Source: a virus
DNA length: 56,616 nucleotides
Strand: one strand, 5' to 3'
IMG/VR virus record: IMGVR_UViG_3300044641_000673
Location: 1 to 56,616 of that record
The position numbers and the translations under genes are program-made. The notes beneath the pieces were generated by a model that had not been told where the DNA came from, did not search any database, and saw only the letters and a list, made by a program, of their open reading frames with translations. Shown one piece after another: positions 6,387 to 54,917 of the stretch. Position 1 is the stretch's first letter; every line of letters begins with the position of its first letter.

Positions 6387-6607
6387 ACGAGAACGCGCCT
6401 GTATTGGCGGATGTCAAGTGGTTTACCACTGGTAAGGGTATCGTGGGCATCGCGGCTGTAAGGACTGAGACAGGTGACCTCACGTTTCGCATCTGCCCAG
6501 TTGATGGTTTTAACGAGGTGATTGACGCTAATCTAGTCATGTCACATGGGGCGGTTTTTCCTGTGGACGCAGGTTACGCAGTATTCGCACGGGAGGATTC
6601 AGAATGA
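6383..6607 (+). CDS. Small phage protein, unknown function (74 aa)
   Basis: This 74-residue product looks mostly beta-stranded (DVKWFTTGKGIVGIAAVR, then LTFRICPVDGF) and ends in an acidic tail. It is coupled by ATGA overlaps both to the gene before it and to the PLP-enzyme gene after it, so it is the last small gene before the base-modification cassette and could be functionally linked to it. No known domain is recognised. Confidence 0.72.
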   Translation: MNENAPVLADVKWFTTGKGIVGIAAVRTETGDLTFRICPVDGFNEVIDANLVMSHGAVFPVDAGYAVFAREDSE

Positions 6608-7560
6608 ACACAGTATTTCCTGAGTTAGCTATTGACCGTAACTTGGTCAAATGGGAGCAACACCTCGGCACGCATACTCCGTGGGAGAACCGCAAAGGTA
6701 TGTGGTTCAAGCGTGATGATTACTTCGCGCCTCTAGGTTACAGCGGTCCGAACGGCTCAAAGATGCGCCAGCTCATCTGGTATGTCAACAAGTTTCGTCA
6801 GGGTAAGACCCACATTGTCACTGGTGCTAGCATTCAGTCCCCTCAGCTGAGCATGAGCGCTATTGTCGGTGCACATTACGGCTTACGCGCTCGTCAGATT
6901 GTTTACAGTAAACCTGAGACTGTGTTGCGTCATGAGAATCCTCGCATTGCCTACGGCTTTGACGCTGAGTTTGAGTTTGCTTCTGGTCCGTACAATCCTA
7001 TCATACAACGTAAGGTTGTTGACTTGACGCAACCGACGTCGCTCGTAGTTGAGTACGGTATTACTGTGCCGCATGACCGCTACCCTGAAGATGATGTGCG
7101 TAAGTTTCACGAGGTCGGCGCTCATCAGACGACCAATATACCGCCTGAAGTCAAGCGCCTCATCGCCCCTGCTGGGTCTTGTAACTCGTTGACGAGCATC
7201 ATGCTCGGCTTGAGCCGCGACTCGCACAACATTGAGGAACTGTTCACCATAGGTATTGGTCCTGACAAGCGCGGTTGGATGCGCCAGCGTCTCGCCTACA
7301 TCGGCGTGGACGTTGATAAGCTGCCGTTCAAGTGGAAGCACTATAGCCTACACGATAGCGGCTACAGCAAGTACAGCGATCACTTCACAGGTGAGAATTT
7401 TGACGGCATCAAGTTTCACCCGACCTACGAGGCTAAGATGTGGCGCTGGTTGACACACCATGGTCAGTTAGATTATGATGACCAGACCGCCTTTTGGATC
7501 GTGGGCAGCGCCCCTGACACGAAAGTTGTTGAACCCTTTTACACTAGGAAAGCATCATGA
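6604..7560 (+). CDS. Diverged fold-type II PLP-dependent enzyme (ACC deaminase/cysteine desulfhydrase-like)
   Basis: The 318-residue protein resembles the tryptophan-synthase-beta fold of PLP enzymes. WFKRDDYFAPLGYSGPNGSK (34-53) matches the pattern around the PLP lysine in the ACC deaminase/D-cysteine desulfhydrase group, making Lys53 the candidate Schiff-base residue. GASIQSPQ (74-81) corresponds to the substrate-carboxylate loop, where the usual SNH is changed to SPQ. APAGSCNSLTS (188-198) corresponds to the glycine-rich phosphate loop, which is unusually poor in glycine. The gene is coupled to a transferase-like gene downstream and stands at the head of the hypermodification cassette, so I infer that it remodels an amino acid already attached to the DNA base. 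A free amino-acid lyase is the alternative. A GGAGG site precedes the ATG. Confidence 0.75.
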   Translation: MNTVFPELAIDRNLVKWEQHLGTHTPWENRKGMWFKRDDYFAPLGYSGPNGSKMRQLIWYVNKFRQGKTHIVTGASIQSPQLSMSAIVGAHYGLRARQIVYSKPETVLRHENPRIAYGFDAEFEFASGPYNPIIQRKVVDLTQPTSLVVEYGITVPHDRYPEDDVRKFHEVGAHQTTNIPPEVKRLIAPAGSCNSLTSIMLGLSRDSHNIEELFTIGIGPDKRGWMRQRLAYIGVDVDKLPFKWKHYSLHDSGYSKYSDHFTGENFDGIKFHPTYEAKMWRWLTHHGQLDYDDQTAFWIVGSAPDTKVVEPFYTRKAS

Positions 7561-8555
7561 CAGATTATCGTCTGCCGAAAAACCGCGCAGAGTATTTCAC
7601 CGCGCTCTACAAGATGAATCTTGAGCACGGGGTTATGCCAGGACTCGTCTACTTGTACATGCCTGAACTCGCTCGCCGCCATAATTGGAACGCTGAGCAG
7701 AAGCTCTGGTTCGCATTCTTGAACGGCTTGACGCAGAACCCAATCACCTCGCTGCGCATATTTGATCAGCTGCCGATGGTTCCTCCTGCGGGCGCGGCGC
7801 TGACTAAGTTTGAGGAATGGTTCAATGCTGAGTGGGATACGCTACAGTTTGACACTGACCGCCGGTATCAAAAGAAAGACACAGTACCCGCGATCAAGAC
7901 TTACGCTCAGCTCGTTGAAGCTAGCGGCTCGCAGCAAGCCATGCTCACCGGCGCATACTCAGAATTGTGGAGCCACGTGCGTGACTCGTACTTTTCGTTC
8001 GGTCGCCTGTCATCGTTCAGCTACCTAGAGTATGTTCACCTGAACGGGTTCGGCGCTGACTGTGATGACCTATTGTTCAGCGACAAGTCAGGTAGCAAGT
8101 CACATCGCAATGGGATGCTGTTCTTGATAGGCAAAGATGAGCTGGTCTGGGACAAGCGCCTACCTAACGGGCAGGAGGGTAATTACCCTAAATTTAATTT
8201 GATGTGCGGCTTCCTCGCTGCGGAGGCTGATAAGTTTGTTGATAATTTCAAAGCCGCTCACCCTGACGTACCTAATGCTGGTCGCTTCACTATGGAGTCA
8301 AACCTCTGTACATTCAAGAATCATTTCTTCGGTCGTCGGTACCCAGGAGTTTACGCCGACATGGCGCAGGAGCGCATTGAGTGGGCTGACTTGCGCGGTC
8401 AAAACGCTTACACCGATGTGTTCAAAGACATGCGGTCTCAACTGCTACCGGAATGGTTGCGTGTTGAATGTGAGAGTTCACCTATGACTGTGAAAGAGAA
8501 AGCCGCCGTGTTTCCTGAGACCGGTTCACCCTTTAGAGCGGAGTACTTTTTATGA
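7557..8555 (+). CDS. AGPT-pyrophosphorylase-like DNA base transferase (probable amino acid:DNA transferase)
   Basis: The 332-residue protein resembles the alpha-glutamyl/putrescinyl thymine pyrophosphorylase superfamily, possibly the clade usually numbered 3. Supporting features are an all-helical N-terminal half with RAEYFTALYKMNLEHGVMPG and QKLWFAFLNGLTQNPITSL, and later RVECE near the C-terminus. Family members displace pyrophosphate from a modified thymine in DNA by an amine or amino acid. It is coupled by four-base overlaps to the PLP enzyme before it and the kinase after it. The family call is from remembered sequence pattern and synteny. No catalytic residue can be named with confidence, and the clade assignment is uncertain. 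Confidence 0.7.
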   Translation: MTDYRLPKNRAEYFTALYKMNLEHGVMPGLVYLYMPELARRHNWNAEQKLWFAFLNGLTQNPITSLRIFDQLPMVPPAGAALTKFEEWFNAEWDTLQFDTDRRYQKKDTVPAIKTYAQLVEASGSQQAMLTGAYSELWSHVRDSYFSFGRLSSFSYLEYVHLNGFGADCDDLLFSDKSGSKSHRNGMLFLIGKDELVWDKRLPNGQEGNYPKFNLMCGFLAAEADKFVDNFKAAHPDVPNAGRFTMESNLCTFKNHFFGRRYPGVYADMAQERIEWADLRGQNAYTDVFKDMRSQLLPEWLRVECESSPMTVKEKAAVFPETGSPFRAEYFL

Positions 8556-9133
8556 CCCAGATTGTCAACATTCGCGGCTGCAATGGTTCTGGCAAGACCA
8601 CAATCGTGCGGCGCTTCCTCACTAAACTGCCGACTCAGGCGCTGGGTGGTAAACCTGACCGCCCGCTGGGTTACAAAGTAGATGCCTCTGTTTGGGGTAT
8701 TATGACCCCTGTGTTTGTAGTAGGTAGCTACGAGAACACATGCGGCGGCGCAGATGGTATAAAGACTCAAGAGGAGATCGCTGATCGCGTGGTAAAGGCG
8801 CATGGCCACGGTCATGTGCTCGTTGAAGGGTTGCTGATGAGCAAGTCAAGCAGCGGCGGGCATGTGGCTCCAATACTGAAAGACCACGGCGCGATATTCT
8901 CGTTCTTGGACACCCCTTGGGAGATCTGCTTAGAGCGGGTTTTGCAGCGTCGCGCGGCGGCGGGTAATGAGAAAGTATTTGATCCCGAGAAAACCATGCG
9001 CACGGCGTATGAGCAATGTCATAGGAGCGCAGAAATACTAACTGAAGCGGGCGGTTATGACGTTCGTTTTCTAGATTGGCAAGACCCCGTCTCGGGTGTT
9101 GTAGCGTATTTGAAGGAGAATGAAAATGCGTGA
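8552..9133 (+). CDS. P-loop kinase, predicted 5-hydroxymethyl-dU DNA kinase
   Basis: The 193-residue protein has a Walker A, RGCNGSGKTT (8-17), at the extreme N-terminus. It also has a GSYENTCGGADGIKTQEEI segment (about 58-76) and LVEGLLMS (about 91-98), the last resembling the Walker B/lid of small phage P-loop kinases. This layout is that of the 5-hmdU DNA kinases, which pyrophosphorylate the hydroxymethyl group of 5-hydroxymethyluracil in duplex DNA. Its position between two transferase-like genes and just before a dUMP-hydroxymethylase-like gene fits that role well. A nucleotide kinase acting on 5-hmdUMP is the main alternative. Confidence 0.78.
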   Translation: MTQIVNIRGCNGSGKTTIVRRFLTKLPTQALGGKPDRPLGYKVDASVWGIMTPVFVVGSYENTCGGADGIKTQEEIADRVVKAHGHGHVLVEGLLMSKSSSGGHVAPILKDHGAIFSFLDTPWEICLERVLQRRAAAGNEKVFDPEKTMRTAYEQCHRSAEILTEAGGYDVRFLDWQDPVSGVVAYLKENENA

Positions 9134-10049
9134 CAATTGCCCATACCCGATGCCGACACCGGAGACTATGTGCTCGATGCCGAGTCTGCTTTATTTCATC
9201 TGGGAGCGAGAGGCTATTCGCCTTGCCCGTGAGAACGGTCACAGCGCCCCGTGGACTAAAGACCCCGTGCTTGACAAATATAAGTTTACCAACATTCACC
9301 GCTGTGACGACCGCGTCTCGCAGTGGATCATTGATAAGTTGATAACCCCGTACCTTGAGCGCTCTGACCTCTGGTTCACCCTGCTGATCGCTCGCCTGAT
9401 CAACTGGCCACCCACGCTACAAGCGCTGATCAACAAGGGTGTCATCCCTTGCACTCCGCAAGAGTTTGACGCTGACATGTTTGAGCACACGCTTGAGCGC
9501 ATCAAGAACGACGGCAAGAAGGTCTACTCCGGCGCGTACATGCTCTACCCGACTAAGATGGAGCCAGGAGGCAACAAGTCTAAGGCGGTGGCAAAATACA
9601 TCATCGGCAGCGCCGTTGAGAACGCTGAGAGCATTGACAACACGCTATGGGAGGCGGGCGAGGCACCGACAATAGAACGCTTTGTGACTGAGTTGAGCAA
9701 GTGCTTCGGCATTAGCACATTCATAGCCGGTCAAGTGGCTGCTGATTTGACTTATGCTCCTGGTCATCTGGACACGGCTGAGGACTTATACAGCTATGCG
9801 CCCGTGGGTCCAGGGAGTTCACGCGGCCTCAACTACTTACTAGGTAAGTCGCCTTACGCCACGTGGAAGCAGAAAGAGTTCAATGCCGAGCTAAGCATCG
9901 TCTTTAGCGAGATTGTTGACAAGTTAGAAATCATAGACATGACGCTGCACGATGTGCAGAACTGCATGTGTGAGTTCAGCAAGTATTGCCGCGCTGTGCT
10001 CAGCGAGGGTAAGCCTAAAACAAATTATCAACCAGAAACGGAGTTCTAA
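9126..10049 (+). CDS. HMUDK-helical/AGPT-PPlase family protein, second DNA base transferase
   Basis: This 307-residue protein resembles the helical domain family found with 5-hmdU DNA kinases and AGPT-pyrophosphorylases. The diagnostic stretch is FIWEREAIRLARENGHSAPW, then TKDPVLDKYKFTNIHRCDDR (about residues 20-60), followed by INWPPTL. In other phages this domain can be fused to the kinase. Here the two are separate, adjacent genes. It probably transfers an amino acid or amine to pyrophosphorylated 5-hmdU. I chose the ATG at 9126 because AAGGAG lies 7 bp upstream of it. An ATG at 9120 has only 2 bp spacing. How it divides work with the 7557-8555 product is unknown. Confidence 0.74.
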   Translation: MRDNCPYPMPTPETMCSMPSLLYFIWEREAIRLARENGHSAPWTKDPVLDKYKFTNIHRCDDRVSQWIIDKLITPYLERSDLWFTLLIARLINWPPTLQALINKGVIPCTPQEFDADMFEHTLERIKNDGKKVYSGAYMLYPTKMEPGGNKSKAVAKYIIGSAVENAESIDNTLWEAGEAPTIERFVTELSKCFGISTFIAGQVAADLTYAPGHLDTAEDLYSYAPVGPGSSRGLNYLLGKSPYATWKQKEFNAELSIVFSEIVDKLEIIDMTLHDVQNCMCEFSKYCRAVLSEGKPKTNYQPETEF

Positions 10050-10050
10050 A

Positions 10051-11088
10051 ATGGAGTTAGTCGTACGCAACGTCAATCAGGCTTTCAGTGAGATATTCTG
10101 GAAGCTCAAAGTGCTCAACCTACAACCTGAGCAGACCCGCAATGGTCCCGCAATCGTGTACCCAGAGATGGTGACCACGGTCTATAAGTGTCCGTCTGAG
10201 CGGGTACTGTTTCACAAGGGTCGTGACGCGAACCCTATCTTTCACTTGATGGAGTCGATCTGGATGCTCGCTGGGCGTAACGACGTTGCGTTCTTGCAGC
10301 AGTTCAATAAGCGCATGGTCGAGTTCAGCGACGACGGCAAGACCTTTAACGCCGCCTACGGTCACCGCTGGCGCAAGCATTTCGGTCATGACCAACTTGA
10401 CGATGTCATCAAGATGCTACGCCGCGACCCCAACAGTCGTCAAGCCGTTATTCAAATGTGGGACGATGCTGACTTGAGCAAGAAGACCAAGGACAAGGCA
10501 TGCAATATGCAGGTCATCTTTGATACACGCGGCGGTCGCCTCAACATGACGGTGATCAACCGGTCTAACGATATCTGGTGGGGTGCATACGGCGCTAACG
10601 CTGTGCATTTCAGTTTCTTGCAAGAGTTCATTGCCGCCGCCATAGCGCACAGAATCGGCGTCTACCGTCAAGTGAGTAATAATTTTCACTTGTACACAGA
10701 ACTTTATAACGCGAAGCCTTACTTGGTGTCCCCGCCGGACTCACATGACTATGACCATTACTCTAACGGCTCAGTGCGTCCGCTGCCGATCATGCTGAAT
10801 GGCGAGTACAAGTTGTTCCTGACGGAGTGTGAAATGTTCTGCCATGACCCGTTCAATGAGCGTATACATTATGCTAACCCGTTCTTTGAGCACATCGCCC
10901 GCCCTATGGCTATGATCAGTCGTGTGCGCAAGATTCACGCAGGTGACGGTCGTAGCTACGCCGCTAAGATCCGCGCTGAAGACTGGCGTCGTGCCGCCTT
11001 TGATTGGATTGACCGCCGCGACCACGCTCGCAAAATGAAAGAGGAAGATGACGAGATAAATGAGATGCGGGAGGCACTGCAAAAATAA
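10051..11088 (+). CDS. Thymidylate synthase homologue, predicted dUMP hydroxymethylase
   Basis: The 345-residue protein belongs to the thymidylate synthase/pyrimidine hydroxymethylase family. The active-site cysteine is Cys151 in DKACNMQV, followed by NRSNDIWWGAYGAN (170-183). The arginine, the aspartate and the final asparagine (Asn183) match residues that bind the nucleotide, with Asn favouring a dUMP rather than a dCMP substrate. HLMESIWML (65-73) supplies the conserved glutamate and NNFHLYTELYN the sugar-binding His/Tyr. With a 5-hmdU DNA kinase gene upstream, hydroxymethylation of dUMP is more likely than methylation. The ATG at 10051 has CGGAG seven bases upstream. It is the last gene of the cassette before a new promoter. 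Confidence 0.82.
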   Translation: MELVVRNVNQAFSEIFWKLKVLNLQPEQTRNGPAIVYPEMVTTVYKCPSERVLFHKGRDANPIFHLMESIWMLAGRNDVAFLQQFNKRMVEFSDDGKTFNAAYGHRWRKHFGHDQLDDVIKMLRRDPNSRQAVIQMWDDADLSKKTKDKACNMQVIFDTRGGRLNMTVINRSNDIWWGAYGANAVHFSFLQEFIAAAIAHRIGVYRQVSNNFHLYTELYNAKPYLVSPPDSHDYDHYSNGSVRPLPIMLNGEYKLFLTECEMFCHDPFNERIHYANPFFEHIARPMAMISRVRKIHAGDGRSYAAKIRAEDWRRAAFDWIDRRDHARKMKEEDDEINEMREALQK

Positions 11089-11152: not shown

Positions 11153-11641
11153 GTGAAACATACTCTCGATTTTATTCTGGCTGGAAGCGAAGTGAAGCGG
11201 TATCATACCGTCACCACTCTCGTGTCTGAAACAGTCGGTCATCACTCGCACGGCGTAGCTATGTTGTGCTTGTTGTTTGACCCGATGGCGAGTCGTCAAA
11301 TGCTGATGGCTGCGTTGTTTCACGACCTCGCTGAACATCAGACCGGCGACATCCCCTCCCCCGCTAAGCGTGAGTTCGGCATCGGCGGTAAGGTGGACGA
11401 ATTAGAGCTGCGACTTATGACCGCTGCCGGAATCGTCATGCCTCACCTCTCGCCTGAAGACAAGCGCACTCTCAAACTCGCTGACGTAGCTCAGGGTGCG
11501 CTGTTTTGCGCTCGGGAAATTTCATTGGGTAACAAACGTATGCGCCGCGTATTTGACCGCTACATCAGCTATGCGGAAGAGTTGATTCTGGTCGGTCGCG
11601 AGCGCGAAATCTTCAACATGATTAAGGAATACGCAGCATGA
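11153..11641 (+). CDS. HD-domain 5'-deoxynucleotidase (YfbR-like)
   Basis: The 162-residue protein carries HD-superfamily metal ligands: VGHHSHGVAML (H of the first helix), LMAALFHDLAEHQTGDIPSP (HD plus the E-x-x-x-GDxPxP signature of YfbR-type nucleotidases) and a later LKLADVAQ aspartate. Such enzymes dephosphorylate dNMPs. Next to a thymine-replacement cassette it could remove dTMP so that host thymidine is kept out of phage DNA, or adjust pools more generally. It starts at a GTG, nine bases after GGAG of the leader block, under its own promoter. It overlaps the DUF3310 gene by ATGA. Confidence 0.82.
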   Translation: MKHTLDFILAGSEVKRYHTVTTLVSETVGHHSHGVAMLCLLFDPMASRQMLMAALFHDLAEHQTGDIPSPAKREFGIGGKVDELELRLMTAAGIVMPHLSPEDKRTLKLADVAQGALFCAREISLGNKRMRRVFDRYISYAEELILVGREREIFNMIKEYAA

Positions 11642-11910
11642 GCGCGGCTAATCAAAAACAAATAGGCGGTAATCACTACAAGCACGGCGGCGAGGAGCAC
11701 TGGGATCGTGTGAATCGTTTGAACCTGAATTACTTTCAGGCGGCTACTACTAAGTACGTTGAGCGGTGCTACCTCAAAGGTAACCCGATTCAAGACTTAC
11801 AGAAAGCCGTTCATTTCCTTGAGAAGCTGATTGAGATCGAGCAGCGTAAAGCTGATGCGGCTTGCAGTGACGGTGCTGAGCCGACTCGTGGCTATGTTAA
11901 CCAAGACTGA
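11638..11910 (+). CDS. DUF3310-type phage protein (90 aa)
   Basis: IGGNHYKHGGEEHWD near the N-terminus followed by FQAATTKYVERCYLKGNPIQDLQKAVHFLEKLI is the standard DUF3310 pattern (GGxHY ... KYxxR ... DLxKAxHYL). The family is very common in phages, often next to nucleotide-metabolism genes, and its biochemical activity is not established. It is coupled to the HD nucleotidase gene and its end abuts the DNA polymerase gene. The C-terminal 20 residues are acidic and likely disordered. Confidence 0.8.
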   Translation: MSAANQKQIGGNHYKHGGEEHWDRVNRLNLNYFQAATTKYVERCYLKGNPIQDLQKAVHFLEKLIEIEQRKADAACSDGAEPTRGYVNQD

Positions 11911-11911
11911 A

Positions 11912-13753
11912 ATGGGCACTTGGGTGTTTGATACTGAAACTCTACCTAACCGCACTTTGTTCTGCGCAAAGAACATTGAGACGGGCGAGTGGTTTGACCT
12001 GTGGCGTCATGATGACGACGCACCGGCTCGCCTTACGCGGTTCGTGCAGCAGTCAGACAGTACATTTATCGGCTTCAACAGCAAATCATTTGACAACGCA
12101 GTTGTGGCGGCGTTCTGCCTCGGCAGGACTGAGATTGAGATCAAGCGCATTGCTGATGACATCATCACGAACCGCCTAGCGCCGTGGAATGCGATGCGTA
12201 AGCATAATTTACGTAGCGTTATTCTTGATGACATTGACTTGATTGAGGTCGCCCCGTCATTCGTAGGTTTGAAAGCCTATGGTGCTCGCATGCACATGCC
12301 TAAGTTGCAGGATATGCCGATCGCTCACGACGACATGATCACCCCTGATCAAGAGCCGATGCTACTTGAGTATTGCCACAACGACGTTGACACAACGGCT
12401 GAGCTGTTGAATCAACTCGAGGGTGAGCTTATGCTGCGCGTTGAGATGAGCCGCCGTTACGGAGCCGACATGCGTAGCAAGTCTGACTCGCAAATGGCTG
12501 AACAGGCTTACATCACCAGCATGGGTCTCAAACGTCAGGATAATGACATCCCTAAGACGGTCAGATATACGCCTCCGGCGTTCCTAAAGTTTATGGATGC
12601 CGAGCTACAGGGGCTGCTTGATCGCGTCTCTGAGCACGTGTTCAACATGAACCCCGTCACTGGGCACGTCAGGCTTCCAGATTTTCTCGGGCTAAAGACG
12701 ATTAAATTCGGCAGCGGCGAATACCAGCTCGGCGTGGGCGGTATTCACAGCGTACATGATAGGCAGGTGTGTCACATCGCTGGTGATGATCACATGTGCG
12801 ACATTGACGCGGCTTCGTTCTACCCGAGTATCATTCTTGAGTGCGGGTTCATACCGGTCGCGTTAGGTAAGCGCTTCGTAGAAGAGTACCGCAAGATCTA
12901 TGAGCGCCGCCTAGAAGCAAAGCGTAACGGCGACAAGATCACCGACGCGACCCTGAAGATTTCATTGAATGGTACGTTCGGCAAACTCGCTAGCCGCTTC
13001 TCGGTGTTGTACTCGCCGGACTTGATGTTGGCGGTCACGCTGACTGGGCAGTTCACCCTGCTCATGTTGATTGAGTGGCTTGAGCGAGCAGGGGCTTTGA
13101 CTTTGTCAGCCAATACTGACGGTATTGCAATTCGTTACACTAAGGAGCAGAAAGAGCTGGTTGAGAAGGTTGTCAACAAATTCAGCGAGGTGTCTGGTTT
13201 CTCATTTGAGTACACACCGTATCGCGCCTTAGCCGTCAAAGATGTCAATAATTACATTGCGGTCAAACCTGATCGCAAATTAAAAGTGAAAGGAATCTAT
13301 GCGCCGTTATCTCTCAAGAAAAACCCAACGGCTCAGGTATCGTCAGATGCTGTGGGAGCATGGCTGGCAGAGGGTACTCCGTTTGAAGACACGATTAGGT
13401 CTGCTCCGTTCACGGACTTTATTAGTGCCCGAAATGTTACCGGCGGCGGTCAGCAGAACGGCGTTTATCTTGGCAAAGTCGTACGGTGGTATCAATCAAC
13501 GGATGCTAGCAATGAGCCTATCAAGTACGCTACGAATGGCAACAAGGTTCCGAAAACCGAAGGCGCTAAGGCATGCATGACCCTGCTTGACAAGGTCACA
13601 CACCCAGCTGATTTAGACTATGACTGGTACAACAAAGAGGCGATAAAAATCGCCATAGCGGTCGGCTGCTCTGAGTATCTCACTCCTGAGCAGATCGCTT
13701 TAGTGGCACCACCACCTAAGAAAACTAGGAAAGTTAAAAATGGAACACGGTAA
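11912..13753 (+). CDS. Family B DNA polymerase with 3'-5' exonuclease
   Basis: This 613-residue enzyme replicates the genome. Exonuclease motifs are FDTET (6-10), GFNSKSFD (54-61) and YCHNDVD (154-160). Polymerase motif A is DIDAASFYPS (297-306), motif B LKISLNGTFGKLAS (348-361) and motif C SANTDGIAI (399-407). In motif C the first aspartate of the usual DTD is asparagine while the essential second one (Asp403) is kept. The protein is short for family B, lacking the large N-terminal extension of T4-type enzymes. I place the start at ATG 11912, giving the typical MGTWVFDTET opening. ATGs at 11894 and 11855 are in frame and possible. It must copy a template with bulky modified thymines if the cassette works as predicted. 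Confidence 0.9.
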   Translation: MGTWVFDTETLPNRTLFCAKNIETGEWFDLWRHDDDAPARLTRFVQQSDSTFIGFNSKSFDNAVVAAFCLGRTEIEIKRIADDIITNRLAPWNAMRKHNLRSVILDDIDLIEVAPSFVGLKAYGARMHMPKLQDMPIAHDDMITPDQEPMLLEYCHNDVDTTAELLNQLEGELMLRVEMSRRYGADMRSKSDSQMAEQAYITSMGLKRQDNDIPKTVRYTPPAFLKFMDAELQGLLDRVSEHVFNMNPVTGHVRLPDFLGLKTIKFGSGEYQLGVGGIHSVHDRQVCHIAGDDHMCDIDAASFYPSIILECGFIPVALGKRFVEEYRKIYERRLEAKRNGDKITDATLKISLNGTFGKLASRFSVLYSPDLMLAVTLTGQFTLLMLIEWLERAGALTLSANTDGIAIRYTKEQKELVEKVVNKFSEVSGFSFEYTPYRALAVKDVNNYIAVKPDRKLKVKGIYAPLSLKKNPTAQVSSDAVGAWLAEGTPFEDTIRSAPFTDFISARNVTGGGQQNGVYLGKVVRWYQSTDASNEPIKYATNGNKVPKTEGAKACMTLLDKVTHPADLDYDWYNKEAIKIAIAVGCSEYLTPEQIALVAPPPKKTRKVKNGTR

Positions 13754-17761: not shown

Positions 17762-19801
17762 TTACTTCATTTTCTTCAAGTCAGCTTCGATGTCCGCATC
17801 AATGTCCGGACCGATTATGCGACTGCCAGGAATATTAGGGATATCCGCAGCTTCAATATTCTCTGGTGCAGCGTTAGGGTCAATCGGTGAAGGTGGGAAC
17901 GCTGTCACAGTGCCCATGATCGCACCCGTCTCGCCTTTGCCGAGGCGTGCCGCCCCTGCGGTAGCCTTAACATTGTACTGCTCGATCAACTTAACAGCCG
18001 CCGCAACTTCATGCGGATCGCTTGACATGAGCAGTTTGCCAACTTTCTCAGCAACTTCGTCAGTCATCGTAGCGCTACGTGCAACACGCGCCGCCATGTT
18101 CGTAAACGAATTCCAGAACGTCCCCGTCACGGCATCCGCAACCGCAGCCCCTACCCCTGAGTCCTCCTCAAAGCGTTCACGCGCCTGAGTACGTCTTCCG
18201 GTAGCCGCGCCACCAAGGATGCGGTTGGATTGTTGGAACAACTGAGCTTCACGCTCAAGAGCTGACTTGAACATCTCAAACTTAGCAGGGCTGTCAAACA
18301 ACGGCTGCAATTTAGCTTGCATCTCAGGCGAGCCAATGATACGCTGCGCGGCGTTCAAGTTTGCGGACGGTGGATCCATGATCTTACTGTAAAGGTCACG
18401 AACTACACCTGTACGGAACGCATCTTTTTCAGCGTTACCCATTTTGCTGATCATGTCAATGACTTGCTCGTGGTCCAGCTTGTTGAAGTCTTTCATACCT
18501 GCGCGCATCGCCTCAAGCACTTCCATGTCACCTGAGTACGCTTGACGAGCCTTGAGGTAAGGCGAATTTGCGCCGCCGGTGGCTTCATCAATCGCGCCCA
18601 CGTAGACGTTGCGCAACTGCTTTAGAGCGTTAGCTTCAGCGCTGCTCATACCTTTAGCGCTCGTGTAACCGGCTTCAATAGTGGCGTCAATACCGCGCTT
18701 GACGTAATCAAGTGTGCGGACGTCTGGCAACTTAGTCAACTCTAAAATTTCATTACCGTTAGCGTCAAACTTACCGGTAGGTTTGTAGATTTCGGGCAGG
18801 GCAAATTTGCTAGGGTCTTCACCGCGCAACTTAGCCGCTTGAGCCTCGGTGTCAGCAATGCTACGCGCTTTGCTCCAGAACTCTTGAAAACGAGGGTTCT
18901 TCAAAGCCTCGATGATGCGTGGGTCGTCTACGTCACCAAAAGCGTATGCGTCGTCATAGAGCGTGTCAGCTTGCTTACGCAAATCTGCCATCATTTTCTG
19001 TTCATCAGCGTAGAAGTTACCAGACTTGATCCCTTTACGGGTCTGTGCGTAAGTACGCTCACGAGCACCGGCGGTCTGCTCGCCGAGTTTCTTCTCAACC
19101 AGACGACCGCTGGGACCGCTACGCTGAGCTACGGTCTCAGCAAGGTCAACTAACGCGGGGTCAGCATTAGCCATAGTTGAAGGGATATTACGAGCGCGGT
19201 CTTGAACGACTTTCTGCTCAATCTGTTGAGGAGTCATACCTGACTCGTTCATAGCGCGGGAGACCTTACCTAAGGCGGCTTTAGTCACGCTAGCCTCGCT
19301 AGGGGCGAGCCGGTCACGTAACCACTTAACAGCCGCGCCGCTACCGCGAATAGCCGCTGGAGCAACTGTGCCGACTGTTGTCCCAACCACTGTGCCGGTA
19401 ACCGCCCCTTCGCCTCGCTCTCCTGGCTTAGCAGAACCCGCGCCAGAGACACCGCCGGTCAAGCCGCCGGTCACAGCACCGCGCACATAAGGGTTTACTG
19501 CTAGGCGAGCTAAAGCGCTAGCGGCGACCGGAGCAGTAGCACCTCCGGTAGCAGGAGCGGTCAGCATAGCCGCCAGAGCTGGAGCAGCCCCGCCGCCGAA
19601 CTCAAGAGCTGGAGCTACAAACGGGTTCTCTTTAGAATACTGCGCGTATTCTTGATTGATCCTAGCGAGTTCGGTCTCGTAGCCTTTGCTACCGGCGAGC
19701 TTAGAGCGAAGCCATGCCTCAGCTTCATCACCCCAACCCATGCCGAGACCTTGACCAACAAGGGCGCGAGCACCGCCCATGTACGGATTAACTGTGGCCA
19801 T
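17762..19801 (-). CDS. Probable DNA ejection (internal virion) protein, 679 aa
   Basis: The protein opens with an Ala/Gly-rich stretch of possible membrane-inserting segments (about 60-155, for example GGLTGGVSGAGS), followed by a long charged helical body. LDYVKRGIDATIEAG, SSAEANALKQLRNVYVGAID and PYLKARQAYSGD in the middle match a pattern seen in P22-like DNA injection proteins. The tail is acidic with many Ala/Pro. It is the last gene of the late operon, just ahead of the terminator, where ejection proteins are often found. It likely leaves the capsid with the DNA and helps span the envelope. Assignment rests on pattern and order. Confidence 0.66.
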   Translation of the reverse strand: MATVNPYMGGARALVGQGLGMGWGDEAEAWLRSKLAGSKGYETELARINQEYAQYSKENPFVAPALEFGGGAAPALAAMLTAPATGGATAPVAASALARLAVNPYVRGAVTGGLTGGVSGAGSAKPGERGEGAVTGTVVGTTVGTVAPAAIRGSGAAVKWLRDRLAPSEASVTKAALGKVSRAMNESGMTPQQIEQKVVQDRARNIPSTMANADPALVDLAETVAQRSGPSGRLVEKKLGEQTAGARERTYAQTRKGIKSGNFYADEQKMMADLRKQADTLYDDAYAFGDVDDPRIIEALKNPRFQEFWSKARSIADTEAQAAKLRGEDPSKFALPEIYKPTGKFDANGNEILELTKLPDVRTLDYVKRGIDATIEAGYTSAKGMSSAEANALKQLRNVYVGAIDEATGGANSPYLKARQAYSGDMEVLEAMRAGMKDFNKLDHEQVIDMISKMGNAEKDAFRTGVVRDLYSKIMDPPSANLNAAQRIIGSPEMQAKLQPLFDSPAKFEMFKSALEREAQLFQQSNRILGGAATGRRTQARERFEEDSGVGAAVADAVTGTFWNSFTNMAARVARSATMTDEVAEKVGKLLMSSDPHEVAAAVKLIEQYNVKATAGAARLGKGETGAIMGTVTAFPPSPIDPNAAPENIEAADIPNIPGSRIIGPDIDADIEADLKKMK

Positions 19802-22656
19802 TATTCAGTTCCTTCCTCAAGCGGGGTAGTCATACGGTAAGCACCCGAATTGATTTGATCAAGACGTGCTTGTTCACGAGCTGTGCGATCTTGCAACACT
19901 TTGTACGCACGTTTGATAACCGCGCCGCGCTCTTCTTTAGTCTTGGAGCCGATACCTTCAAGCTCCATCAGAATTGCGCGCTCGCCTTCAGTCGGTGAGC
20001 CACCAAATGTTGCTTTCAATTTAGCTAGACCTTGAGAACCGAGCAGGTTGTTGAGGATGCGCGTATTGACGATCACGGGATCTTTAGAACCCGCCGCTTC
20101 AGACAAGAACTGTTGACCTTTGTCTAACCAGCCACCGGCCAGAGAGTTCGGGTTCAGCGCGTAAGCCTGTTTCAAATCAGCGAGAGACTGTTTGCTAGAA
20201 GCGATAAGGTCTTCAGCTTCGGTCTTCATTTTGATTTCAGGACCAGTCAGTTTAGCCTGTTGCGCTTTCTGTTGTTGGAACTTATCTTGGCTCAAAGCGA
20301 AGTTGGCTTGAGCCAAAGAAACATTTGCCAATGACGAGTTGATCTGCGCCAGCTTACCTTCAATATTCATATTGCCGATTTCTTGGACGCGTTTCTGGTA
20401 CTCAGGAGTTCCCGCCTTGAGACCTTCATCAAGAGCTTGCTTACCCGCCGCAGACTGAGGCTCACCCGACTTGATGTAATCTTTGATGAGTTCAGTAGCA
20501 ATAGTTCGCTTGTCTTTCATTTCCTCACCAGCTAATGCGCGCAGCGTGTTCAAATCTTCTTTGGCAGCAGTCATCTTCATCTTCTGACCTTCAAGAGCCA
20601 GAGCAAGTTTCTGCTGAGCAGATGCGCGTTTGTTTTTAGAGTATTCCCCTAGCTCTTTACCGACCAAGCCAAGGTTCTCAGCAAAATGACCGGTCTTAGT
20701 AGGAGCGCCGAACGCAGACGCTAATCTGAAATACATCTCAGCTTTAGAAGATTTCTCATCCTCAGGTGACTTCATAGCGCTGCTGAGCATTTTAGCGAAT
20801 GCGTCGCTCTCAGCCTTAGCGCTAGCGCGGGCAGCTTTCAAATCTTCACCATAAGCGCCGTCTTTCGGACCGTAGGCGGCGAGCAGCGCTTGAATGTTAC
20901 CCATACGCTCGCTACCGAAAGCCGGTGGTGCGACGGGGACAGGTGGAGGTGCAGCTGCCACGGCTGGGGCGACCGGCATAGGTGCGTTGTTCATAGCGAC
21001 AGTGGTCAAAGGCGCTTGAACCGGCGCAGCTTCTGCTGGCATTGAAATCATAGGCGGTGGCGGGCTAGCCATGTCAACAGGGCTAATCTCAACTGGGGCG
21101 CGGTTGCGTTCTTGAAGAGCAAAGAACTCAGCTTCTTCCTCAGGGCTACCGTAGCCGCTAGGTAGCTGAACGCGACCTGCGGTTTGGTAATGTGTTTTCA
21201 CTTGACCGCCTTTAGCCATAGCCATGGTGGCGTAACCCATGTCGTCAAAGTATTTACCCCCACCGCCACCTCCGAAACCGCCGAAGTCGCCGAAGTTATA
21301 ATCGCTTCCGCGGAAATCATAACTTCCATCAAGGTTAAATGCGTTGTCGCCGAGGTAAGTGTTCTTGTCGCTGTTTAACGAAAAGTCACCAGCCATCGTA
21401 CCGTCAAAAACACCTGAGTTATCAAGATTTTCCCAATCTTGAACTTCGTATTTGTCATTCAATTCGTTGATCGCGTCTTGAATACCGCCGGTGGTTCCGT
21501 CATCAGCAGCGACTAAGGTGTCGTTATTACCGGTTACAGTATCAGCTACTGTGTCAGTCACACCGCCGCCGAAAACAGTATCATCGCCAGCCGCCTCCAA
21601 GTAACTCGTGTCAGTTTTGTTTTTGTCTAAATCTGCGATGGTGTCTAAAATTACGCCGGTTGTACCGTCATCAGCAGCAACTAACGTATCGTTATTACCG
21701 GTTACGATGTCAGTCACGCCGCCACCAAACACAGTGTCATCTCCAGCGGCATCTAAATAACTCGTGTCGGTTTTATCTTTGTTTAGATCTGCAATAGTTT
21801 GCAAGATGTCCGCGGTTGTGCCGTCATCAGCAATAACATCATTTCCGGTTCCACCATTTAGCGTGGCGATCGTATCTAAAATAACGCCGGTTGTACCGTC
21901 ATCGGTGATAACGTCATTTCCTGTACCAGCAACGACAGTATCATTACCAGTAGCGCCGACAACTGTGTCATTCCCAGTACCGCCAATTAGCGTCACTAAG
22001 TCATTACCACCCCCACCTACGACCGTCGTCAAGTCATTACCGCCACCACCGACAATAGTGTCGTTACCGCCACCTCCGACGACAGTGTTGATTACGGGGG
22101 GCGTATAAGTCCCGTACTTAGGCGCTTGCAGCACGTTGCCCCAGCGGTTTTGAGTCGCGTTAAAGATGTCTTGACCACTGATACCGTATTTATCAGCATA
22201 CGCATTGATAGCGTCTGAATAAGCGTTCGGGTTTTTAGCGGCGTAATCTTGAATGTTTTGGTTGTACTGCTTGATACCAATATTTCGACCAGTGATTGGG
22301 TCCGGCGAAGGGTCTTTGTCACTCTTAGTTGCCCATTGCAATCCAGCAGACTTAGGCTCATAGCCTGTCTGAAATTGAGACTGCATGTACATAGGAGTGT
22401 TCATCAAACGGGTTTGATACTCTTTGCTGTAAGCGTCATACGCAGCTCTATCAGCTGGCGCGTTAGTTTTATCAACATTGTATTTAGCTAAAAGCGAATC
22501 ATAGTTAGCTTGCGCGGCGGTCAGCTTGTCACCCGTCAGCGTGTCGGTAGCGACTGGACGTGTGCCAGGATCAACCGGTAAAGCACCTGAATAGTTTATT
22601 TTGCTAGGAGTACCGACCCCGTACTGCTGCATTATTCTGTTGAGTTCAAATCCCAT
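19801..22656 (-). CDS. Large virion/ejection protein with RTX-like repeats (951 aa)
   Basis: Residues 1-190 are hydrophilic. Residues 193-274 contain about seven GGxGND-type units (GGGGNDTIV and relatives), the hallmark of RTX calcium-binding beta rolls. Two longer units of about 50 residues follow (276-390), each with ADDGTTGVILDTI ... SYL.AAGDDTVFGGG. A glycine-rich stretch, a MAKGGQVK motif, a proline/alanine-rich linker and a long coiled-coil-like C-terminal half (about 620-940) complete the protein. No known enzymatic motif is seen. Located among ejection-protein genes, it is probably packaged in the head. RTX repeats would fold only on meeting calcium, for example after delivery. Confidence 0.62.
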   Translation of the reverse strand: MGFELNRIMQQYGVGTPSKINYSGALPVDPGTRPVATDTLTGDKLTAAQANYDSLLAKYNVDKTNAPADRAAYDAYSKEYQTRLMNTPMYMQSQFQTGYEPKSAGLQWATKSDKDPSPDPITGRNIGIKQYNQNIQDYAAKNPNAYSDAINAYADKYGISGQDIFNATQNRWGNVLQAPKYGTYTPPVINTVVGGGGNDTIVGGGGNDLTTVVGGGGNDLVTLIGGTGNDTVVGATGNDTVVAGTGNDVITDDGTTGVILDTIATLNGGTGNDVIADDGTTADILQTIADLNKDKTDTSYLDAAGDDTVFGGGVTDIVTGNNDTLVAADDGTTGVILDTIADLDKNKTDTSYLEAAGDDTVFGGGVTDTVADTVTGNNDTLVAADDGTTGGIQDAINELNDKYEVQDWENLDNSGVFDGTMAGDFSLNSDKNTYLGDNAFNLDGSYDFRGSDYNFGDFGGFGGGGGGKYFDDMGYATMAMAKGGQVKTHYQTAGRVQLPSGYGSPEEEAEFFALQERNRAPVEISPVDMASPPPPMISMPAEAAPVQAPLTTVAMNNAPMPVAPAVAAAPPPVPVAPPAFGSERMGNIQALLAAYGPKDGAYGEDLKAARASAKAESDAFAKMLSSAMKSPEDEKSSKAEMYFRLASAFGAPTKTGHFAENLGLVGKELGEYSKNKRASAQQKLALALEGQKMKMTAAKEDLNTLRALAGEEMKDKRTIATELIKDYIKSGEPQSAAGKQALDEGLKAGTPEYQKRVQEIGNMNIEGKLAQINSSLANVSLAQANFALSQDKFQQQKAQQAKLTGPEIKMKTEAEDLIASSKQSLADLKQAYALNPNSLAGGWLDKGQQFLSEAAGSKDPVIVNTRILNNLLGSQGLAKLKATFGGSPTEGERAILMELEGIGSKTKEERGAVIKRAYKVLQDRTAREQARLDQINSGAYRMTTPLEEGTE
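21511..22080 (-). repeat. RTX-like and longer coding repeats inside the 951-aa protein gene
   Basis: 21835-22080 encodes tandem GGxGND nonapeptide-like units. 21511-21831 encodes two imperfect copies of a roughly 50-codon unit (DDGTTGVILDTI ... DTVFGGGVTD ... NNDTLVAA). The DNA copies differ mainly at third codon positions, so the repeat is maintained at protein level. Confidence 0.8.
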
Positions 22657-52731: not shown

Positions 52732-54303
52732 TTAAGCGGCGTAAGGGTTTACCCTTGGTTGCGATTTGATTCGCGGCTCGTCCATATCTTTTGCTTGAGG
52801 TAACTCAAACCATCCATCATTCTTGAGATAAATGATAGCTTGCGTAAACGTGTCCACATAATCATCATGCTCCGCTACTGGGAACTTGCCCAGTTGTTTG
52901 AGGAAAGACGCTGCCCAGCTCACCGGTTGACCGAGGTTCTTCTTTGATTCCGGCACCCACAACAGCCCCAGCTCTAAGGTCGGTGCGGCTTGGTGCGCCC
53001 GTGATACCTTGTCAGCCTGACCTGGATTATAGCCCACGGCTGGCACTTTCGCCAAGCGCAAGTCTTGCAGCAATGATTGCCCACTCGCCTTCGCTTCCAC
53101 CAAGATACGGTCTGGGCGCTTAGCGCGTGAGTATGGCGAGTCCTTCGTCATCCCGCCGTATTCAGTCGTCCAGTCTTTCACGGCTCGTGCTCGCAGGTCT
53201 GGATAGCTCAGGTGTTCATCCCATGCATCAATCAGCATCGCATTGCGTGCGCCCTTGTGCGTGAACATCGCCCAGACCGAGCAAGCCGTGGGGTCACCGG
53301 TTGTCTTCTCAGTGAACGCGCAGTCGTATGACTGCAGTATGTACTCAAACGGCGGCAGACCTGATGACGCTGGCCATAGGTTGAAGTGTGCGGTCTTGAG
53401 GATACCGCCCTCGCTCGGAGTCGGGTCTTGCTGTAACTGACCCGCCGTGCCGTATGTACCCAGCAGTTGCTTCAGCATGGTGATCTCTTTCTCACCGAAG
53501 CGCTCGGGGCAGATCAGCTCGCCCTTCTTCTTGCGTGGGTCGTACGTGCCGAGGCAGGTCTTGCGCACCTTACCGTCCCACTCAGCAGGAATGCAAATAT
53601 GCTCCCAGCCCTTGATGTCCTCAAGGATGTGTCCGCTGATGTCGCGCTCGTGCAGTCGCTGCATGACGGTCACCATTGCGTCAGTCTTCGGGTTGTTCAG
53701 TCGCGTTGACCATACCATGTCAAACCATTCAAGGTCTGACTCCCGCATGATCTCCGACTGCGCGGCTTGAGCGCCGTGTGGGTCGTCAAGTATCAAGCGT
53801 GAGCCGCCCTCACCGGTTGCCGTACCGCCCACCGATGTGGCCAGCCGGTATCCGGTCTTGTCGTTCTCAAAGCGCTGCTTGGCGTTTTGGTCGCCAGCAA
53901 ACGCAAACATGTAGCCCCAGCGTTCTTGATACCACGGGGACTGCAACAGCCGCCGTGTCTTAAGGTTGTCGCGGGTGCTCAGGTTGCCCGAGTAGCTGGC
54001 GCATAGAAACTTCTGGGCTGGGTCGGCGATCCACTCCCACGCCGGCCACATGACGCTTACAATTGTCGATTTGGAATGTCGCGGCGGAATGTTAATCAGC
54101 AGCCTGTGAATATCTCCAGCGCTGACCGCCTCAAGGTGCTCGCAAATTGCCTCGATGTGCCAGCTCGGGATAAACGGAATGCCGGGCTCTACGACGTGCC
54201 ACGACTGCTTCACGAACTCGTACAGCGAACCCGACGCCGCTCGGCGGTCTTGCTCCCGCTTGACAAGGTCAAGCATGACGGCAGGGTTCATTGGTGCGTT
54301 CAT
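52732..54303 (-). CDS. Terminase large subunit (523 aa)
   Basis: The N-terminal ATPase shows a Walker A-like IPPRHSKST (72-80) and Walker B LILDDPHG (170-177), followed by a coupling region MVTVMQRLHERDISGHIL. The nuclease half carries SYDCAFTEKTTGDPTACSVW, ILVEAKASGQSLLQDL and HDDYVDTFTQAIIYL, providing the acidic triad of the RNase H-fold nuclease. It drives DNA into the prohead and cuts the concatemer. ATGA-type overlap couples it to the small subunit gene. The subtype (headful or site-specific) cannot be told from sequence alone. Confidence 0.88.
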   Translation of the reverse strand: MNAPMNPAVMLDLVKREQDRRAASGSLYEFVKQSWHVVEPGIPFIPSWHIEAICEHLEAVSAGDIHRLLINIPPRHSKSTIVSVMWPAWEWIADPAQKFLCASYSGNLSTRDNLKTRRLLQSPWYQERWGYMFAFAGDQNAKQRFENDKTGYRLATSVGGTATGEGGSRLILDDPHGAQAAQSEIMRESDLEWFDMVWSTRLNNPKTDAMVTVMQRLHERDISGHILEDIKGWEHICIPAEWDGKVRKTCLGTYDPRKKKGELICPERFGEKEITMLKQLLGTYGTAGQLQQDPTPSEGGILKTAHFNLWPASSGLPPFEYILQSYDCAFTEKTTGDPTACSVWAMFTHKGARNAMLIDAWDEHLSYPDLRARAVKDWTTEYGGMTKDSPYSRAKRPDRILVEAKASGQSLLQDLRLAKVPAVGYNPGQADKVSRAHQAAPTLELGLLWVPESKKNLGQPVSWAASFLKQLGKFPVAEHDDYVDTFTQAIIYLKNDGWFELPQAKDMDEPRIKSQPRVNPYAA

Positions 54304-54881
54304 TTCTGTCCGGCTTTAGCGAGCAAGCGGCTCATGTTCTCAAGCTCCTCATCACTGAGGTTCTTCAGGTCTACCGCCGCGAGTGCAATCGGTCCTCCGT
54401 TTGAGCCGGTGTGCTCTTGCGTGATCTTGTCGCCGTAGACCTTGGGCAGCATCTTGCTAAGCATCCACTTGCGCGTGTCAATCTGAACCCGCTTGTGCGC
54501 GATGACGTCGCTGTTGAGCGGCATCAGCATCTGCTTGAGCAGGGGTTCACCCTTCTCATCAAACATCGGGTCGCCGTTCGGGTCGAGCTTCTGCACCGTC
54601 ACCCACTCGTGCGTCTTGTCGCTCAGTGCGACGATCTCATCAGCGAGCAGAGCGTAGCCGATCTCTCGCGCGTGCGCGTAGTCCTTCCCCACGCCGCTGG
54701 GGTCTTTGTTCACCCACTCCAGAAACGTAGCAACAGAGGGCATCCCCTCTGCTTTGCAGATTGACTCAAGAGAGCGCCCGACCTTCAACTCCTCACAGAT
54801 CTGAGCAGAGACGACCTCGCGGTCGTACTTGCGTGCTTGCAGGTGCACTGCGCCTTTGGTGTTGTGTTTTGTGGTAGCCAT
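54300..54881 (-). CDS. Terminase small subunit (193 aa)
   Basis: The 193-residue protein begins with a basic stretch and a helix-turn-helix (AQICEELKVGRSLESICKAE, then GMPSVATFLEWV), the DNA-recognition part of TerS. A helical oligomerisation region follows (ARKYDRE..., YALLADEIVALSDKTHEWVT), and RKWMLSKMLPKVYGDKI is a conserved motif of this TerS type. The ATG at 54879-54881 lies only seven bases from the -10 element, so the mRNA may start at the ATG. It is the first gene of the late operon. The repeat region just upstream is a candidate recognition (pac) site for this protein. Confidence 0.85.
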   Translation of the reverse strand: MATTKHNTKGAVHLQARKYDREVVSAQICEELKVGRSLESICKAEGMPSVATFLEWVNKDPSGVGKDYAHAREIGYALLADEIVALSDKTHEWVTVQKLDPNGDPMFDEKGEPLLKQMLMPLNSDVIAHKRVQIDTRKWMLSKMLPKVYGDKITQEHTGSNGGPIALAAVDLKNLSDEELENMSRLLAKAGQK

Positions 54882-54888
54882 GTTTCTG

Positions 54889-54917
54889 ATTATACCTTTC
54901 CGATTCAAAAAAGACAA
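54889..54917 (-). promoter_or_regulatory. Terminase promoter (TTGTCT-17-TATAAT), predicts a leaderless mRNA
   Basis: TTGTCT (54912-54917) and TATAAT (54889-54894) are 17 bp apart on the minus strand. With the ATG of the small terminase gene seven bases after the -10, transcription would begin on or next to the start codon, leaving no room for a ribosome site. No other ATG with a good site is nearby. Confidence 0.72.

Follow-up and report, generated by a model that had tools for sequence, protein, structure and literature searches.

A compact five-gene phage cassette with a predicted ViI-like route to hypermodified thymine

The DNA analysed here (hereafter the window) is a viral record of 56,616 bases from IMG/VR, and its terminase, portal and tail genes show it to be a phage. 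Relatives of 52-59 kb suggest that the genome is near complete. Five ORFs lie on the plus strand at 6604-7560, 7557-8555, 8552-9133, 9126-10049 and 10051-11088, encoding 318, 332, 193, 307 and 345 amino acids, respectively (the last counted from the start at 10051). They overlap by 4, 4 and 8 bases and the fifth follows after a gap of 1 base, so that the positions and tight packing given by a first-pass annotation of the window hold. For the ORF at 9126-10049 an alternative ATG at 9120 is likewise open. All five genes matched PHROG families, with E-values in gene order of 5e-75, 4e-62, 4e-17, 4e-56 and 7e-106, and Pfam matches were obtained to ADDT (1e-17), HMUDK_hel (4e-45) and Thymidylat_synt (6e-22). 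These matches are far beyond chance and uphold the first-pass reading of a cassette for thymine hypermodification through 5-hmdU; we hold with high confidence that the five genes form such a system.

The cassette is followed by an HD-domain 5'-deoxynucleotidase-like (YfbR) gene at 11153-11641 (+; PF12917, 7e-10), whose product is probably a nucleotide-pool enzyme. M6 gp59, PaMx11 gp52, Pam3_53 and MW2 gp18 occupy the equal position after the TS gene. A DNA polymerase gene at 11876-13753 (+; phrog_1252, 1e-160) lies 3' of the cassette, an arrangement also seen in M6 and PaMx11. Elsewhere, within the structural half of the genome, a 951-amino-acid ORF on the minus strand (19801-22656) contains glycine/aspartate-rich, RTX-type-like repeats (GGGGNDTIVGGGGND...).

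The last gene of the cassette (10051-11088, +) encodes a thymidylate synthase (TS) homologue of the dUMP hydroxymethylase (HMase) type (PF00303, 6e-22; phrog_5131, 7e-106). Compared with E. coli ThyA, the protein keeps the catalytic Cys146 and the dUMP/uracil-reading Asn177, has lost Trp80, and has Asn in place of His147. The identical residue pattern is found in the M6, PaMx11 and ViI enzymes, and it fits a dUMP hydroxymethylase, as was proposed in the first-pass annotation.

The gene at 7557-8555 (+) encodes an amino acid:DNA transferase (AADT, formerly aGPT-Pplase2) of the ViI/actinophage clade (PF18724, 1.1e-17; 65 bits against a cut-off of 26.2). The best solved match of its model (pLDDT 86) was the PaMx11 5-PmdU glycinyltransferase (8z2m/8z2n; probability 1.00, TM-score 0.51-0.58), with DNA glycosylases weakly behind. 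Unlike this comparison of the predicted structure, hhalign of the AADT profile against PaMx11 gp46 gave no significant match. In the AADT tree a branch with 100/100 support unites the window protein with the ViI-type and actinophage transferases, and the glycine-type proteins of M6 and PaMx11 fall elsewhere. Inside this ViI clade the window protein is sister to the actinophage forms.

The P-loop protein encoded at 8552-9133 (+) resembles 5-hmdU DNA kinases (phrog_800, 4e-17) and has the Walker A motif GCNGSGKTT. Its match to the 5-hmdU DNA kinase family PF18748 (5e-4) is under the curated cut-off of 27 bits, and PaMx11 gp49 is likewise under it. The protein is 34% identical to PaMx11 gp49 and 27% to M6 gp54 and is syntenic with both, in keeping with its earlier description as a 5-hmdU-kinase-like protein, and its closest isolate proteins are kinases of PaMx11-like and M6-like phages. 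RefSeq labels homologues of this family as 'terminase small subunit' in M6 (gp54, L002:5686-6249), PaMx11 (gp49, L003:6218-6787) and ViI (Vi01_061c, L004:38203-38865). The likely terminase small subunit of the window sits elsewhere, at 54300-54917 (phrog_1482).

The profile search that the first-pass annotation had proposed assigned 7557-8555 to PF18724 and 9126-10049 (+) to the HMUDK_hel family, formerly aGPT-Pplase1 (PF18723, 4.4e-45). The annotation had called both proteins transferases. This stands for 7557-8555; a second transferase at 9126-10049 is ruled out by the PF18723 match and the lack of any match to PF18724, and the cassette holds one AADT. The misreading arose because public annotations still name the HMUDK_hel family 'alpha-glutamyl/putrescinyl thymine pyrophosphorylase clade 1'. 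The protein is 31% identical to M6 gp55, and like that gene and its counterparts in PaMx11 (gp50), Sonora, Pam3 and MW2, the HMUDK_hel gene lies 3' of the kinase gene. We consider it a probable partner of the kinase, a role made uncertain by the records of Lolalove (L089) and the Manatee Spring podovirus (L092), in which an AADT and a P-loop kinase were found and HMUDK_hel was not; HMUDK_hel is thus not universal in such pathways.

The first gene (6604-7560, +) encodes a fold-type II PLP enzyme of the ViI orf226/Vi01_182 type (phrog_3650, 4.7e-75), for which no family exceeded its cut-off in the Pfam profile search. In pairwise comparison it is 31-34% identical over the full length to the enzymes of ViI, phiA8-29 and Cygsa01, and its matches to Ackermannviridae-type enzymes have E-values of 1e-58 to 1e-64. 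It is 30% identical to Montesquieu MONT_41, and its similarity to M6 gp52 is remote (E 0.003). The motifs FKRxDYFAPL, NG(S/D)KxR, SPQ, EYGIT, (I/V)GIGP, HPxYExK and FWIVGS are common to the window and Ackermannviridae-type enzymes. The protein as query found 346 phage records and, among the matches listed, most were from Ackermannviridae or their kin. K53 and Y275 align with the lysine and tyrosine positions of E. coli D-cysteine desulfhydrase (DcyD), and the predicted structure (mean pLDDT 78, with a poor loop at residues 38-50) resembles D-cysteine desulfhydrase and ACC deaminase, in agreement with the fold type II of the first-pass annotation. Elimination or replacement, not decarboxylation, is usual for fold-type II PLP enzymes; the ViI enzyme reportedly decarboxylates O-linked serine. 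The window enzyme is predicted to decarboxylate the thymine-attached amino acid. The earlier remark that no decarboxylase was visible is not supported, because this enzyme is homologous to its counterpart in the ViI/Ackermannviridae pathway.

Relatives were found by two scans in 67 distinct IMG/VR contigs (60 via the PLP enzyme and 7 further via the AADT), and nearly all of them keep the gene order where they are long enough. The PLP enzyme, AADT, kinase and HMUDK_hel all fall below 60% identity to any isolate in the phage collection, and the lineage therefore appears uncultured. In L031 (and L030) the PLP gene stands apart from the AADT-kinase-HEL-TS block and lies on the opposite strand, about 7 kb away in L031. 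L047, L061, L049, L053, L056, L060 and L064 have extra genes between PLP and AADT, which are DHH-family ORFs or an ORF of about 250 amino acids without a Pfam match. Hidden further tailoring genes at this site were considered and rejected, as the ORFs there are mostly of these two kinds or small and unknown, and they are not conserved.

Among the relatives, kinase identity to the window protein is either 72-99% or about 40-49%, with none between, whereas the other genes vary continuously. In the kinase tree, form A (the window form) makes up a well-supported clade, and so does form B (for example L024:11946-12521), with L087 as an outlier. On quick trees the A/B label needs 8 changes for HMUDK_hel, 9 for AADT, 7 for PLP and 10 for TS, of which 3, 2, 2 and 3, respectively, are forced by well-supported branches. 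Between L021 and L023 the DNA identity is 80% in AADT, 57% in the kinase, 86% in HMUDK_hel and 91% in TS, and the drop coincides with the kinase gene ends. Two diverged kinase forms, about 41-49% identical to each other, have been exchanged among otherwise similar cassettes (L018-L088), with breakpoints at the ends of the kinase gene.

TG and TC are the main sites of action of 5-hmdU DNA kinase (PMC6449724, PMC7653180), and the kinase of these cassettes could therefore act as a specificity module. We propose tentatively that it is an exchangeable one, in which single-gene swaps would alter the thymines decorated and hence the restriction systems blocked. A likened case of swappable specificity is that of the HsdS subunits of type I systems. 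Recombination of the single kinase gene without a change of specificity is also possible. Comparison of 4- and 6-base palindromes between kinase forms A and B gave nothing surviving multiple testing, and when TG/TC contexts were grouped by kinase form the differences were small and confounded by base composition. Genome-wide in the window, the observed/expected ratio of 6-base palindromes is 0.14 for all-G/C sites vs 0.75 for A/T-containing sites, compared with 0.20 and 0.72 in unmodified lambda. All-G/C six-base palindromes are also avoided in ViI and in the relatives of the window. Restriction-site avoidance was dismissed as independent proof of T protection, because lambda avoids such sites alike. 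Whether the kinase chooses the modified thymines could be tested directly with the two natural kinase forms.

Very probably, the five genes give some thymines of the phage DNA a short amine-ended side chain. In the proposed pathway the TS homologue would make 5-hm-dUMP, which would be polymerised into phage DNA, and the P-loop kinase, probably acting together with HMUDK_hel, would phosphorylate 5-hmdU at selected sequence contexts. The AADT would displace the phosphate by an amino acid, most likely serine via its hydroxyl, and decarboxylation of the attached serine by the PLP enzyme would give 5-(2-aminoethoxy)methyl-dU (5-NeOmdU). The modified base may shield the DNA from host nucleases. Judged from sequence, the product is likely to be this base, which is that of Salmonella phage ViI. 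The chemistry is then probably not new, and what is new is the compact gene arrangement together with the repeatedly swapped kinase gene.

ViI and CBA120 carry 5-NeOmdU at ~40% of thymidines (PMC11721090), and the DNA of M6 is hypermodified (PMC6449724). By sequence comparison the window holds the gene set of ViI arranged as an M6-like operon, as judged from the homology of the PLP enzyme and AADT, the clade of the AADT, and the lack of homologues of the M6 and PaMx11 tailoring enzymes. An HMase, kinases, a PLP enzyme and two aGPT-Pplases constitute the 5-hmdU pathway common to all Ackermannviridae, as described with Dickeya phage PP35 (PMC6336734). HMase, kinase, aGPT-Pplase1, aGPT-Pplase2 and PLP enzyme are that same set, and the first-pass statement that the combination matched no pathway known to the annotator is thus not supported. 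The final base that it thought might be new is possible, but since the set matches that of ViI and the Ackermannviridae it is not the leading expectation.

The same pathway logic could end in a different, undescribed base, if another amino acid were attached or if the PLP enzyme carried out elimination or racemisation. The AADT is closer to the actinophage transferases than to that of ViI (E 3e-57 vs 4e-28), and no PLP enzyme was detected in mycobacteriophage Lolalove, which leaves room for another amino-acid specificity. In addition, the PLP enzyme has just 31-34% identity to the ViI type and a fold like that of eliminating enzymes such as D-cysteine desulfhydrase. However, the AADT and the PLP enzyme each pair with ViI homologues and the entire set is the ViI set (PMC6336734). 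We consider a different base rather improbable, and a new base arising from another amino acid used by the AADT similarly unlikely.

The operon layout itself is like that of M6 and PaMx11, and M6 too has a threonine-dehydratase-like PLP gene (gp52), which would suit an end product of the M6 type (5-NedU) or PaMx11 type (Na-GlyT/5-NmdU), in which glycine is attached and reworked. But no homologues of the radical SAM-like M6 gp53 (at E 0.01), M6 PLP gp52, the PaMx11 FAD enzyme gp47 or the PaMx11 acetyltransferase were found in the window or related loci, in line with the absence of a radical-SAM gene in the first-pass annotation. The AADT also lies outside the glycine clade, and the resemblance of the PLP enzyme to M6 gp52 is remote. 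Such a product was rejected on the absence of the tailoring enzymes and is very unlikely. Equally slight is the chance that the cassette has decayed or serves a purpose other than base modification, as all genes are intact, active-site positions are retained and the genes are conserved across a diverse lineage. 5-NeOmdU remains the preferred product.

The compact five-gene operon, with its ViI-like amino-acid/PLP route, would lend itself to reconstruction in vitro or in E. coli far more readily than the dispersed genes of ViI, and it places this route in a widespread uncultured phage lineage. Two recurrent annotation errors are also corrected, namely aGPT-Pplase1 read as a transferase and the kinase named 'terminase small subunit'.

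Like the window, Glutamicibacter phage Montesquieu (MONT_38-52) has an AADT gene adjoining a homologous fold-II PLP gene and a P-loop gene, but its TS and HMUDK_hel genes are several kb off, and its PLP enzyme and AADT are 30-35% identical to those of the window. Pseudomonas phage PaMx11 (gp46-gp52) shares the kinase-HEL-TS-HD order and the AADT fold (8z2m); its AADT falls in the glycine clade, and an FAD oxidoreductase and an acetyltransferase stand where the window has the PLP enzyme. The Pseudomonas phage M6 (gp51-gp59), whose base is 5-NedU, has the core order kinase-HEL-...-TS-HD-polymerase and a fold-II-like PLP gene adjoining the AADT gene. Unlike the window, M6 carries gp53, a radical SAM-type gene annotated 'DNA repair photolyase', as well as the Nmad5 gene gp56; its AADT belongs to the glycine clade, and its PLP enzyme is just remotely similar. 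ViI (Vi01) has, like the window, an HMase (Vi01_060c), a P-loop kinase (061c, orf67), an aGPT-Pplase1/HMUDK_hel protein (130c, orf160), a PLP enzyme (182, orf226) and an AADT (199, orf247), the last two homologous to those of the window. The ViI PLP enzyme is longer (424 vs 318 amino acids), and the AADT of the window is nearer the actinophage forms than the ViI form. The ViI genes are spread over 157 kb, whereas in the window they form one overlapping operon in a phage genome of ~57 kb.
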